From Intestinimonas timonensis (GTDB taxonomy: Bacteria; Bacillota; Clostridia; Oscillospirales; Oscillospiraceae): a DNA stretch of 49,580 nucleotides. Every line of letters begins with the position of its first letter. Position 1 is the stretch's first letter. The DNA lies in NCBI RefSeq assembly GCF_900626145.1, contig NZ_LR130835.1, positions 1 through 49,580 on the forward strand, given 5' to 3'. The notes below the pieces were generated by a model, which ran no database searches, was not told the origin of the DNA, and saw only the letters and a list, made by a program, of their open reading frames with translations. Of the stretch, positions 36,774 to 38,725 are shown in pieces. A program made the translations under genes and the position numbers.

Positions 36774-38078
36774 ATGAAGCAGATCATCGAGATCGTTGAC
36801 GTCCTGGGCCGTGAGATCCTGGACTCCCGCGGCAATCCCACCGTCGAGGTGGAAGTCTATCTGGAAGACGGCACTGTGGGCCGCGCCAGCGTGCCCTCCG
36901 GCGCCTCCACCGGCGTCCATGAGGCCTGCGAGCTCCGGGACGGCGACAAGGAGCGCTACCTGGGCAAGGGCGTGCTCAACGCCGTGGAGAACGTCAACAA
37001 CGAGATCGCCGAGTGCCTGGTGGGCATGAACGTGCTGGATCAGACCGCCATCGATAAGGCCATGATCGAGCTCGACGGCACCCCCAACAAGAGCCGTCTG
37101 GGCGCCAACGCCATCCTGGGCGCCTCCCTGGCCTGCGCTAAGGCCGCCGCTGAGAGCCTGGGCGTCAGCCTCTACAACTACATTGGCGGCGTCAACGCCA
37201 AGACCCTCCCTGTGCCCATGATGAACATCCTCAACGGCGGCGCTCACGCCACCAACAACGTGGACATCCAGGAGTTCATGATCATGCCTGTGGGCGCCTG
37301 CTGCTGGAAGAAGGCCCTCCAGATGTGCGCCGAGGTCTTCCACACCCTGAAGACCGTCCTCAAGGAGAACGGCACTCCCGCCGCCGGCGTGGGCGACGAG
37401 GGCGGCTACGCCCCCAACCTGAAGAAGGATGAGGACGCCTTCAAGTGCATCGTGGCCGCCATCGAGAAGGCCGGCTACAAGCCCGGCGAGGACTTCATGA
37501 TCGCCATCGACGCCGCCGTGTCCGACTGGTACAACGCTGAGACCGGCTGCTATGACCTGCCCAAGGCCAAGAAGACCATGACCAAGCAGCAGATGGTCAA
37601 CATGTGGAAGAAGTTCGCCGACAACTACCCCATCATCTCCATGGAGGACTGCATGGGCGAGGACGACATCGAAGGCTGGCAGATGCTGACCAAGGCTCTG
37701 GGCGACCGTGTGCAGCTGGTGGGCGACGACCTGTTCGTCACCAACACCGAGCGCCTGAAGATGGGCCTGGAGAACAAGATCGCCAACGCCATCCTCATCA
37801 AGGTCAACCAGATCGGCACCCTGACCGAGACCCTGGACGCCATCCAGATGGCCAACCGCGCCGGCTACACCGCCATCGTGTCCCACCGCTCCGGTGAGAC
37901 CGAGGACACCACCATCGCCGACATCGTGGTGGGCACCAACGCCGGCCAGATCAAGACCGGCGCTCCCAGCCGCACCGACCGCGTGGCCAAGTACAACCAG
38001 CTGCTGCGCATCGAGGAGGAGCTGGACGAGGTGGCCCAGTACCTGGGCAAGGACGCCTTCTTCAACCTGAAGAAATAA
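36774..38078 (+). CDS. eno: Enolase
   Basis: 434 residues. EIVDVLGREILDSRGNPTVE, VPSGASTGVHEACELRD, PVPMMNILNGGAHATNNVDI, VGDEGGYAPNL, SMEDCMGEDD, VGDDLFVTN, IKVNQIGTLTET and SHRSGETEDT give the full metal and substrate site. Forms phosphoenolpyruvate. Ends DEVAQYLGKDAFFNLKK. ATG 36774 follows AAAGGAG. Its last 54 bp and the downstream terminator are repeated twice in a tandem array after the gene. Confidence 0.98.
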   Translation: MKQIIEIVDVLGREILDSRGNPTVEVEVYLEDGTVGRASVPSGASTGVHEACELRDGDKERYLGKGVLNAVENVNNEIAECLVGMNVLDQTAIDKAMIELDGTPNKSRLGANAILGASLACAKAAAESLGVSLYNYIGGVNAKTLPVPMMNILNGGAHATNNVDIQEFMIMPVGACCWKKALQMCAEVFHTLKTVLKENGTPAAGVGDEGGYAPNLKKDEDAFKCIVAAIEKAGYKPGEDFMIAIDAAVSDWYNAETGCYDLPKAKKTMTKQQMVNMWKKFADNYPIISMEDCMGEDDIEGWQMLTKALGDRVQLVGDDLFVTNTERLKMGLENKIANAILIKVNQIGTLTETLDAIQMANRAGYTAIVSHRSGETEDTTIADIVVGTNAGQIKTGAPSRTDRVAKYNQLLRIEEELDEVAQYLGKDAFFNLKK

Positions 38079-38092
38079 GTTCAGATAAGCAC

Positions 38093-38128
38093 GCGGGGCC
38101 GCTGCCAATGGCAGCGGCCCCGCTTTTT
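38093..38128 (+). terminator. Terminator of eno (array copy 1)
   Basis: GCGGGGCCGCTGCC (38093-38106) pairs with GGCAGCGGCCCCGC (38110-38123), then TTTTT. Confidence 0.93.
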
Positions 38129-38211
38129 GCTCGTCCAGCTCCGGGGCCCCCGACCGAGCCCAGCGAAGCGGGTCGGTCGGGGAAAGGAGGAGCAAGGGAG
38201 CGGAAGGAGGG

Positions 38212-38313
38212 ATGCCCACACTTGGGCGTCCCGACGGAAGCGGACTTTGCGACGACGCGGACGAGGTGGCTCAGTACCAGGGCAAGGATGCCTTCTTCAA
38301 CCTCAAGAAGTAA
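38212..38313 (+). CDS. 33-residue ORF ending in an enolase tail (copy 1)
   Basis: Reads MPTLGRPDGSGLCDDA followed by DEVAQYQGKDAFFNLKK. The second half is the enolase C-terminus with one substitution (Leu to Gln). GGAAGGAGG lies upstream but only 1 bp from the ATG, too close for efficient initiation. It may be a non-coding by-product of the tandem repeat; the frame is kept in the next copy despite several substitutions. Confidence 0.3.
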   Translation: MPTLGRPDGSGLCDDADEVAQYQGKDAFFNLKK

Positions 38314-38329
38314 GTTAAGATAAGCACGC

Positions 38330-38362
38330 GGGGCCGCTGCCATTGGCAGCGGCCCCTTTTTT
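38330..38362 (+). terminator. Terminator in array copy 2
   Basis: GGGGCCGCTGCC / GGCAGCGGCCCC stem followed by T6. Confidence 0.88.
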
Positions 38363-38446
38363 GCTCGTCCAGCTCCGGGGCCCCCGACCGAGCCCAGCGA
38401 AGCGGGTCGGTCGGGGAGAAGGAGGAGCAAGGGAGCGGAGAGAGGG

Positions 38447-38548
38447 ATGCCCATGCCTGGGCTTCCCGATTGGAGCGGACTTTGCGACGACGCGGACGAG
38501 GTGGCTCAGTACCAGGGCAAGGATGCCTTCTTCAACCTCAAGAAGTAA
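38447..38548 (+). CDS. 33-residue ORF ending in an enolase tail (copy 2)
   Basis: Same length and frame as the ORF at 38212: MPMPGLPDWSGLCDDA then DEVAQYQGKDAFFNLKK. The two differ at seven bases in the first ten codons, with no indel; the rest is identical. Translation is unproven. Confidence 0.3.
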   Translation: MPMPGLPDWSGLCDDADEVAQYQGKDAFFNLKK

Positions 38549-38564
38549 GTTAAGATAAGCACGC

Positions 38565-38597
38565 GGGGCCGCTGCCATTGGCAGCGGCCCCTTTTTT
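38565..38597 (+). terminator. Terminator in array copy 3
   Basis: Same GGGGCCGCTGCC / GGCAGCGGCCCC stem and T6 as copy 2; the array stops just after it. Confidence 0.88.
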
Positions 38598-38725
38598 GCT
38601 GTTTTGGATTGGTTGCGTCCAGGTTATAGGGCTGGGCGGGGGAGAAGGGCAGGGGAGGGCCCAGGTGATGGGTAGGGCGTGCAACATGGGGCCTCGGAGC
38701 GCCCAAGGGTGAGGAGGGATGCTTG

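Follow-up and report, generated by a model that had tools for sequence, protein, structure and literature searches.

Gene ends duplicated around small structured RNA elements in Intestinimonas timonensis and related Oscillospiraceae: candidate non-coding mobile units

The stretch of DNA analysed here, hereafter the window, comprises 49,580 nucleotides of Intestinimonas timonensis (contig NZ_LR130835.1, positions 1 to 49,580) and carries two forward-strand genes whose 3' ends are present in more than one copy: the enolase gene eno and, upstream of it, a gene which we take to be gpmI. The subject of this work is these duplicated gene ends and the small structured elements lying between the copies. 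Throughout the text, D1 designates the duplicated part that adjoins the gene and D2 the far copy, while P is the gene sequence directly before D1 and P' an inverted segment that follows D1. The structured elements are of two kinds, type A (about 115 nt) and type B (a different element of about 125 nt), represented by models R1 and R2, respectively.

The eno coding sequence (36774..38078) is an open reading frame (ORF) of 434 amino acids, supported by 80 eno relatives. Tandem Repeats Finder (TRF) reports a tandem repeat at 38024-38600 with a period of 235, 2.5 copies and 94% matches, in which tail copies begin at 38024, 38259 and 38494, each consisting of the last 55 bases of eno and the terminator. 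In copies 1 and 2, tail and terminator are followed in turn by an inverted segment of 13 nt, the palindrome and some 80 more bases; the third copy ends after the terminator at 38600, so that the palindrome is present twice and not three times (2 matches in the window versus 0 in 100 shuffles). By repeat comparison, D1 with its intrinsic terminator spans 38024..38129, D2 with its terminator 38259..38363, and the distal copy D3, identical to D2 and also followed by the terminator, 38494..38600. The two type A elements lie at 38143..38258 and 38377..38493 (R1, 107.8 and 105.3 bits, both in the model seed), and all these features are on the forward strand. The 13-nt segment after terminators 1 and 2, CTCGTCCAGCTCC, is the P' of each unit (38130..38142, from the junction-complement scan, and 38364..38376, with the same letters). 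It is the exact inverse complement of eno 38018-38030, the P stretch straddling the start of the duplicated part (13 of 13 positions complementary to 38130-38142), and is followed by the hairpin-rich stretch of about 115 bases and then by the next tail copy. Copies 2 and 3 are identical across 113 aligned bases, and both depart from the true eno end at the same five codons, four times synonymously and once with L replaced by Q.

The other gene, gpmI (34943..36463, forward strand), is the first one affected, and its coding sequence was delimited from the ORF, its codon-usage score and its translation. Its functional tail D1, fused to the gene and running through the stop codon, lies at 36421..36463; P', an inverted near-complement of gpmI around the D1 start, at 36464..36476 (junction-complement scan, score 10); a type B element at 36480..36606 (R2, 117.9 bits, among the model-building sequences); and D2, a second tail copy with its own stop and a shorter end, at 36608..36647, all on the forward strand. 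The direct repeat (36421-36456 versus 36608-36643) shows one synonymous difference over 11 aligned codons.

A preliminary description of this DNA, made from the letters alone, had already pointed to the array. Its three copies of period 235 are borne out by TRF, starting one base before the positions it gave, and the gpmI tail copy that it reported is real. The recurrence of tail plus palindrome holds three times over for tail and terminator and twice for the palindrome. Its remark that the extra tails are not fresh copies of the eno end agrees with the five differences shared by copies 2 and 3. The 33-codon ORFs it saw ahead of these copies are present, but the corresponding peptides lack conservation: the reading frame that runs into D2 is closed within 12-16 codons in 5 of the 16 type A cases, and none of the element's frames is open throughout the set (42, 52 and 64 of 98), for which reasons a conserved peptide was rejected. 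A continuous frame from the D1 stop into D2 was also rejected. Among eight close pairs, with units of 164-265 bp, the lengths 164, 187, 224, 235 and 265 are not multiples of three, and 204 and 228 are. The duplicated tails themselves, by contrast, differ as coding sequence would.

Relatives were collected by an enolase-protein scan that yielded 80 eno loci (L codes denote loci, G codes genomes), the nearest being Flavonifractor and Pseudoflavonifractor. In the three loci closest by enolase (L001, L002 and L007) eno ends plainly, with its terminator; in L003, L010 and L011 the eno tail is present twice with an inserted stretch between the copies, and in L004 such a duplication begins at the contig end. 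L011 belongs to the complete genome AP025582.1, and the same plan also occurs on contigs of other isolates and of metagenome-assembled genomes (MAGs), which makes the assembly artefact considered in the preliminary description unlikely. The gpmI duplication recurs in L002, L004 (whose copy has no P') and L005, and in L002 pgk shows the same D1-element-D2 plan. As a separate observation, L009 and L010 just after the eno tail, and L012 after eno, contain a repeated-looking stretch with motifs like GCGAAGCGTGACAA, which lies after the stop codon and before the terminator, has no tail copy with it and is possibly a further element family.

Both elements have the signature of a structured RNA. Seven type A sequences gave a consensus in which 19 of 31 pairs are changed on both sides in at least one sequence. 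In the larger alignments, 97.8% of pair cells are standard in 98 type A sequences and 96.4% in 48 distinct type B sequences, values favoured by the fact that these alignments were fitted to the R1 and R2 models, whose seeds were mostly copies first spotted through their duplications. Double changes in both families are far above shuffled and slid controls. Moreover, G.U outnumbers A.C within pairs by 183:19, 98:10 and 68:7; because a DNA hairpin would give similar numbers of both, the modelled strand acts as RNA, and purely DNA palindromes are ruled out. The first hairpin of type A and the last of type B have a common CCCCG...UGGGG stem in which the fifth pair is often G.U. At gathering score Rfam gave no match for the window and six loci, with below-threshold matches only at permissive settings.

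Counts of copies and of bearing genomes are lower bounds, 150 candidates per genome having been scored in 12 close genomes, 18 in a 200-genome survey of the family and 17 in a 199-genome survey of the phylum; the type A survey stayed within the family, type B was also looked for outside it, and many of the sampled genomes are draft MAGs. Type A occurs in at least 9 of the 12 close genomes, with up to at least 47 copies in one, and in at least 126 of the 200 family genomes at E ≤ 1e-8. Type B occurs in at least 10 of the 12 and in at least 2 of the 199 phylum genomes, namely G004 itself and G077, both of which are in the family sample. The complete genome G001 holds at least 13 type A and at least 10 type B copies, while G010 gave no match to either model among its 150 scored candidates. 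A 400-kb repeat scan of CE91-St43 listed no clear coding-tail duplication, so that density varies along and between genomes. Three arrangements were seen in addition: a tandem array of three type A copies, repeating every 164 bp (L246:1236-1673, genome G100); units of both types lying one after the other behind a single gene, together with additional tail copies (L118 and L127), the stop codon varying among the L118 tails as TGA, TAA, TGA; and a type A element inside metK (L157:1508-1622), open in the gene frame and adding about 39 codons before the GAGDQG motif.

The association with duplicated gene edges was examined by comparing the flanks of 151 distinct type A and 48 distinct type B copies, a repeat being a local alignment scoring at least 13 and starting no more than 14 nt from the element. 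A direct repeat at or near the 3' end of the element, matching its upstream side, was detected for 30 of the 151 type A and 41 of the 48 type B copies; strongly decayed D2 copies fall below this threshold, and no pair was detected for the other 121 and 7. The 71 pairs include some that reflect a resemblance to tRNAs or arrays of elements and not gene edges, and 12 were left out of the codon counts for want of a frame scoring above zero. Frames were assigned from the codon usage of the upstream gene body, without use of the duplication edge, and a few scores are barely positive (L215 0.02, L283 0.07, L206 0.08). The 59 frame-assigned cases (20 type A, 39 type B), which are partly non-independent because they include the same gene in related genomes and stacked units, share a common plan: gene, D1 with its stop, element, D2. 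The duplicated part is the 3' end of the gene in 54 and the gene start in five, all five with a type B element in antisense (presumably truB, a tyrA-like gene, lepA, a serine dehydratase-like gene and a transporter, judged from the translated starts). Judging from translations, the affected genes include eno, pgk, gpmI, infB, lepA, rpoD, uvrB, groES, deoC, aminoacyl-tRNA synthetases and others, most of these names being our assumption.

The edges are precise. Aligned duplications measure about 19-116 nt, and the repeat ends within -5 to +8 nt of the stop or start codon in 45 of the 59 cases; among 17 pairs at least 97% identical, 13 end within the same distance of the ORF edge. Type B stands in sense orientation in 34 of its 39 cases, and in 27 of these 34 the repeat ends -5 to +8 nt from the stop codon, so that no terminator was copied there. 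Over 1017 codons, D1 and D2 differ by 166 synonymous and 35 non-synonymous changes, where neutrality predicts 26% synonymous; by our own arithmetic, about 41% would be expected if D1 were under selection and D2, of the same age, were dead. This excess of synonymous differences indicates that both copies have, overall, a history of coding constraint; in nine pairs all codons agree, and in five non-synonymous changes outnumber synonymous ones. The five gene-start cases follow a similar pattern (21 synonymous versus 6 non-synonymous). The D2 stop codon is lost in gpmI of L002 and L005 and in L189. Differences near the junction are weakly depleted (38/672 at positions 1-12, 167/2200 at positions 13-60), which we do not rely on.

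The inverted segment is likewise general. P' is about 10-16 nt long and complementary to the insertion junction between P and D; an ungapped complement to the 38-nt junction, lying between stop codon and element, reaches a score of at least 8 in 44 of 59 cases, as against a proportion of 0.0735 when junctions and gaps are shuffled among cases. Matches scoring at least 7 extend over 5 nt of the P side and 7 nt of the D side (medians), and in lepA of G009 the complement extends to 20 nt with one mismatch. At difference sites near the junction, P' fits D1 11 times, D2 six times and neither three times. In our own reading of the lepA loci, P' of several species tracks the lysine codons of its own species, P' of G239 is closer to that of G004 than to its own host, and in G154 and G214 P' matches D2 better than D1. 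In L344 and L348, P'-like sequences also follow the distal lepA tail, as if an older unit had once been there.

Comparison with sister genomes devoid of the unit bears on which copy is native; the window gpmI was left out of this codon comparison. In infB of G007, arranged as D1-P'-B-D2, D2 and the following sequence align with the plain end of the empty G006. Relative to G006, 13 of 28 codons differ in D1 and 7 of 28 in D2, all synonymous, against 6 synonymous and one other in 120 codons of the gene body, and D1 differs from D2 at 12. In lepA of G004, D2 and the terminator match the plain ends of the empty G034 and G128: against G034, 15 of 28 codons differ in D1 (all synonymously), 6 of 28 in D2 and 21 of 120 in the body (19 synonymous, 2 other), while versus G128 the counts are 7 and 5 of 28 and 14 of 120. 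For gpmI of L002 against the empty L009, D1 differs at 5 of 9 codons, D2 at 2 of 9 and the body at 17 of 150. At lepA and infB these alignments show that D2 is the displaced original end, D1 having come with, or been remade by, the insertion; gpmI of L002 is in partial agreement. In eno of L003, L010 and L011, D1 equals D2 at the 16 compared codons, which does not fit a simple foreign D1. The window eno does not discriminate which copy is native, and its D3 may be the native end by analogy with lepA and infB only. The tail of the empty G128 lepA is, in our own reading of this one sequence, chimera-like, with the front of D1 and the back of D2, as expected from loss of a unit by recombination between D1 and D2.

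Certain sites recur. Both tail copies could be read at lepA in 10 genomes, and the second copy starts at the same codon in all seven genomes in which the intervening stretch was compared. At eno the duplication starts within a few bases in four loci, with type A in the window, L003 and L011 and type B in L010. Type B elements at the same site are nonetheless little more alike (mean similarity between species of 0.667 over 55 pairs at lepA and 0.676 over 10 pairs at infB) than those in different genes (0.644 over 1702 pairs between genomes, 0.688 over 124 pairs within a genome), so that either sites are reoccupied or elements turn over. Common descent of the lepA elements is not supported beyond close pairs such as G004/G239 (0.93). 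Elsewhere in the window, a 33-bp tandem repeat of 2.5 copies at 29080-29162 is apparently unrelated to the elements.

We favour the reading, with a probability of roughly 0.6, that the eno array arose when a small non-coding mobile element inserted twice, one unit stacked on the other, or inserted once and was duplicated in tandem. Such a unit would consist of D1 (the replacement edge, up to the stop codon or terminator), P' and a structured RNA of type A or B, and would land at most a few dozen codons before the end of a conserved gene, with P on one side and the original end D2 on the other. It would bring or regenerate the missing edge, the old edge and the native flank being pushed aside, and the gene would stay intact because of this supplied or regenerated edge. 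The unit would be mobile, P' in RNA form may recognise the target, and the window eno presumably works likewise; D1 would travel with the unit in diverged cases and be copied from the host in identical ones, with a host-encoded or rare trans-acting recombinase assumed. Insertion is favoured because it explains why D2 and its flank are native, why gene starts are duplicated in some cases, why the duplications stop exactly at gene edges and why the units occur sporadically; the low share of codons with an amino-acid change between D1 and D2 (35 of 1017) also supports it. Of the four causes proposed in the preliminary description, repeated integration at gene ends comes closest, with the refinements that the element sits between the tails and that the distal copy is the native one at lepA and infB. 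Recombination with a divergent donor allele fits lepA of G004 and infB of G007, because the synonymous divergence of D1 there greatly exceeds that of the gene body, and partly gpmI of L002, but not the window eno.

Several points weigh against insertion. No enzyme, excised form or new insertion was seen in the genomes compared, and the 121 type A copies in which no adjacent repeat was detected may have been inserted in another way or be older. The synonymous bias of D2 is unexpected for a dead relic and would then call for an insertion of recent date, for recombination with alleles that lack the element or for some function of D2. In the part of PMC12946183 considered here, gene transfer agents and transduction are described as prominent in Oscillospiraceae, and DNA exchange could plausibly keep D2 functional through recombination with element-free alleles. 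D2 of infB in G007 is itself elevated (7 of 28 codons versus 7 of 120 for the gene body); the contrast between D1 and D2 in gpmI of L002 disappears against the empty L010 (D1 7/9, D2 6/9); and D1 of the window eno is less diverged from L007 than D2 is. Furthermore, lepA D1 and D2 of one species share species-specific residues, so that D1 often seems host-derived, and the apparent repeated occupation of one lepA site would need a targeting explanation. A more specific proposal is that A, B and perhaps more families could be RNA-guided, protein-free mobile elements, in which the RNA formed by the scaffold and a P' rewritten for each host gene directs insertion at the coding edge, which is rebuilt in the process. 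We put this forward as a tentative possibility, the odds being against it.

Among the other explanations, a cis-regulatory module of the 3' untranslated region, in which P' switches between pairings with the tail and D2 to control mRNA stability or termination and which is selected for regulation and not for mobility, would account for the strong structural conservation, the tracking of host lysine codons by the P' of several lepA units and the predominant sense orientation of type B. It is hard to reconcile with the sporadic presence of the units, missing from sisters at lepA (G034, G128) and infB (G006), with same-site copies of distant species that are not orthologous by similarity, and with the antisense gene-start cases, and we consider it unlikely.

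An intron-like process is a quite unlikely alternative: D1-P'-element would be removed from the mRNA and P joined to D2, the unspliced mRNA giving the same protein, with P' as an internal guide that binds the P|D1 junction first and the start of D2 afterwards, and both tails under coding selection. The internal guide of group I introns has a P'-like geometry, being contiguous, covering both junction sides and keeping the same 5'-3' order, and a contiguous, junction-complementary P' that spans both sides is what is found here. The preservation of the protein sequence by D1 and D2 in most cases, the 11 synonymous differences versus one other between the lepA D2 of G004 and G239, and the RNA-type pairing agree with such a process. 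We demoted it as a general explanation because of the five antisense gene-start cases, whose substitution pattern is similar and to which transcript splicing cannot apply. In addition, some D2 copies have no stop codon, the elements had no Rfam match at gathering score, and they are too small, known self-splicing introns being far longer.

A reverse transcriptase that copies mRNA 3' ends was another cause listed in the preliminary description; this reading, with the cDNA inserted beside the gene, is weakened to the point of being improbable. Duplications that extend to the stop codon or terminator, targets many of which are presumably highly expressed, and elements structured as RNA would suit it. 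However, RVT_1 is found in 6 of the 12 close genomes, most of them drafts, and does not track the elements; the complete G001 has one, and there was no match in four of the 10 that bear type B (G002, G008, G009 and G011, all drafts). Moreover, the distal copy and its flank are the old end at lepA and infB, and gene starts are duplicated in antisense. Least probable of all is ordinary tandem duplication by slippage or unequal crossing-over, kept for its stacked terminators with the elements incidental: the exact 235-bp period, the identity of window copies 2 and 3 and arrays such as L246 recall it, and it likely contributed to the second eno unit, but two structured families follow one D1-element-D2 plan in many genes with P' in 44 of 59, and the stacked terminators of the preliminary description fail where no terminator was copied (27 of the 34 sense type B cases) and where gene starts are duplicated.

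The units partly resemble several known systems. REP sequences (repetitive extragenic palindromes), bacterial interspersed mosaic elements and bacterial miniature inverted-repeat transposable elements (MITEs) are short, repeated, palindromic, present in many copies per genome and mostly located beside genes, all of which holds for A and B. MITEs are defined by constant terminal inverted repeats and a short target duplication; here, in contrast to MITEs and REP sequences, the inverted segment follows the target gene, the duplications reach about 19-116 nt and the element is a covarying multi-helix RNA. Mobilisation by REP-associated tyrosine transposases is disfavoured, since the Y1 transposase does not track the elements in the 12 genomes, most of them drafts: Y1_Tnp is found in 5 of 12, and none in the complete G001 nor in G003, G007, G008, G009 and G012. 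The in-frame type A element read through without a stop in metK recalls the Rickettsia palindromic elements, with the difference that a single mid-gene in-frame copy was worked out here.

Integrative and conjugative elements (ICEs) and dICEs of streptococci, in the portion of PMC4701971 covered here, insert in 3' ends of housekeeping genes (rplL, guaA, lysS) and more rarely in 5' ends (ftsK, rbgA), and their direct repeats can hold the exact gene 3' end, leaving the host gene intact. The present units similarly have repeats that hold the gene end, with the gene restored, as with ICEs, integrative and mobilizable elements or prophages inserted in a gene end. They differ from ICEs, described there as carrying an integrase and grouped by locus, in being too short for an integrase at 164-265 bp, in affecting many genes and in having P' and the RNA. 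In the sections of PMC3630166 consulted, the mORFs of fungal mitochondria bring a C-terminus diverged in DNA and hardly in protein, and the displaced native C-terminus of their hosts is close to that of sister species. A diverged inserted tail with a displaced native tail is what lepA of G004, infB of G007 and partly gpmI of L002 resemble, and it was not seen at eno of the window, L003, L010 and L011. According to the same sections mORFs encode an endonuclease, for which the units leave no room, and the host here is a bacterial chromosome; those sections of PMC3630166 contain no counterpart of P' and the RNA scaffold. No description of such elements was found in the open-access literature, subscription papers and preprints being outside the scope of the search. 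To our knowledge, a protein-free unit of such size that joins a junction-complementary segment to a structured RNA has no known counterpart.

If the insertion reading is right, a mobile element exploits essential genes with nothing more than a spare gene end and a target-complementary RNA, and no protein of its own, and such elements exist in a major family of gut bacteria. This would point to a new route for site-directed insertion at gene ends and would explain why conserved genes in these genomes have double tails that diverge at synonymous sites. A caution would follow for phylogenies, as the ends of housekeeping genes used in them may be duplicated or of mixed origin. Should the RNA-guided proposal also hold, essential genes would serve as safe landing sites, and a second copy of the gene end would be kept in play over evolution.

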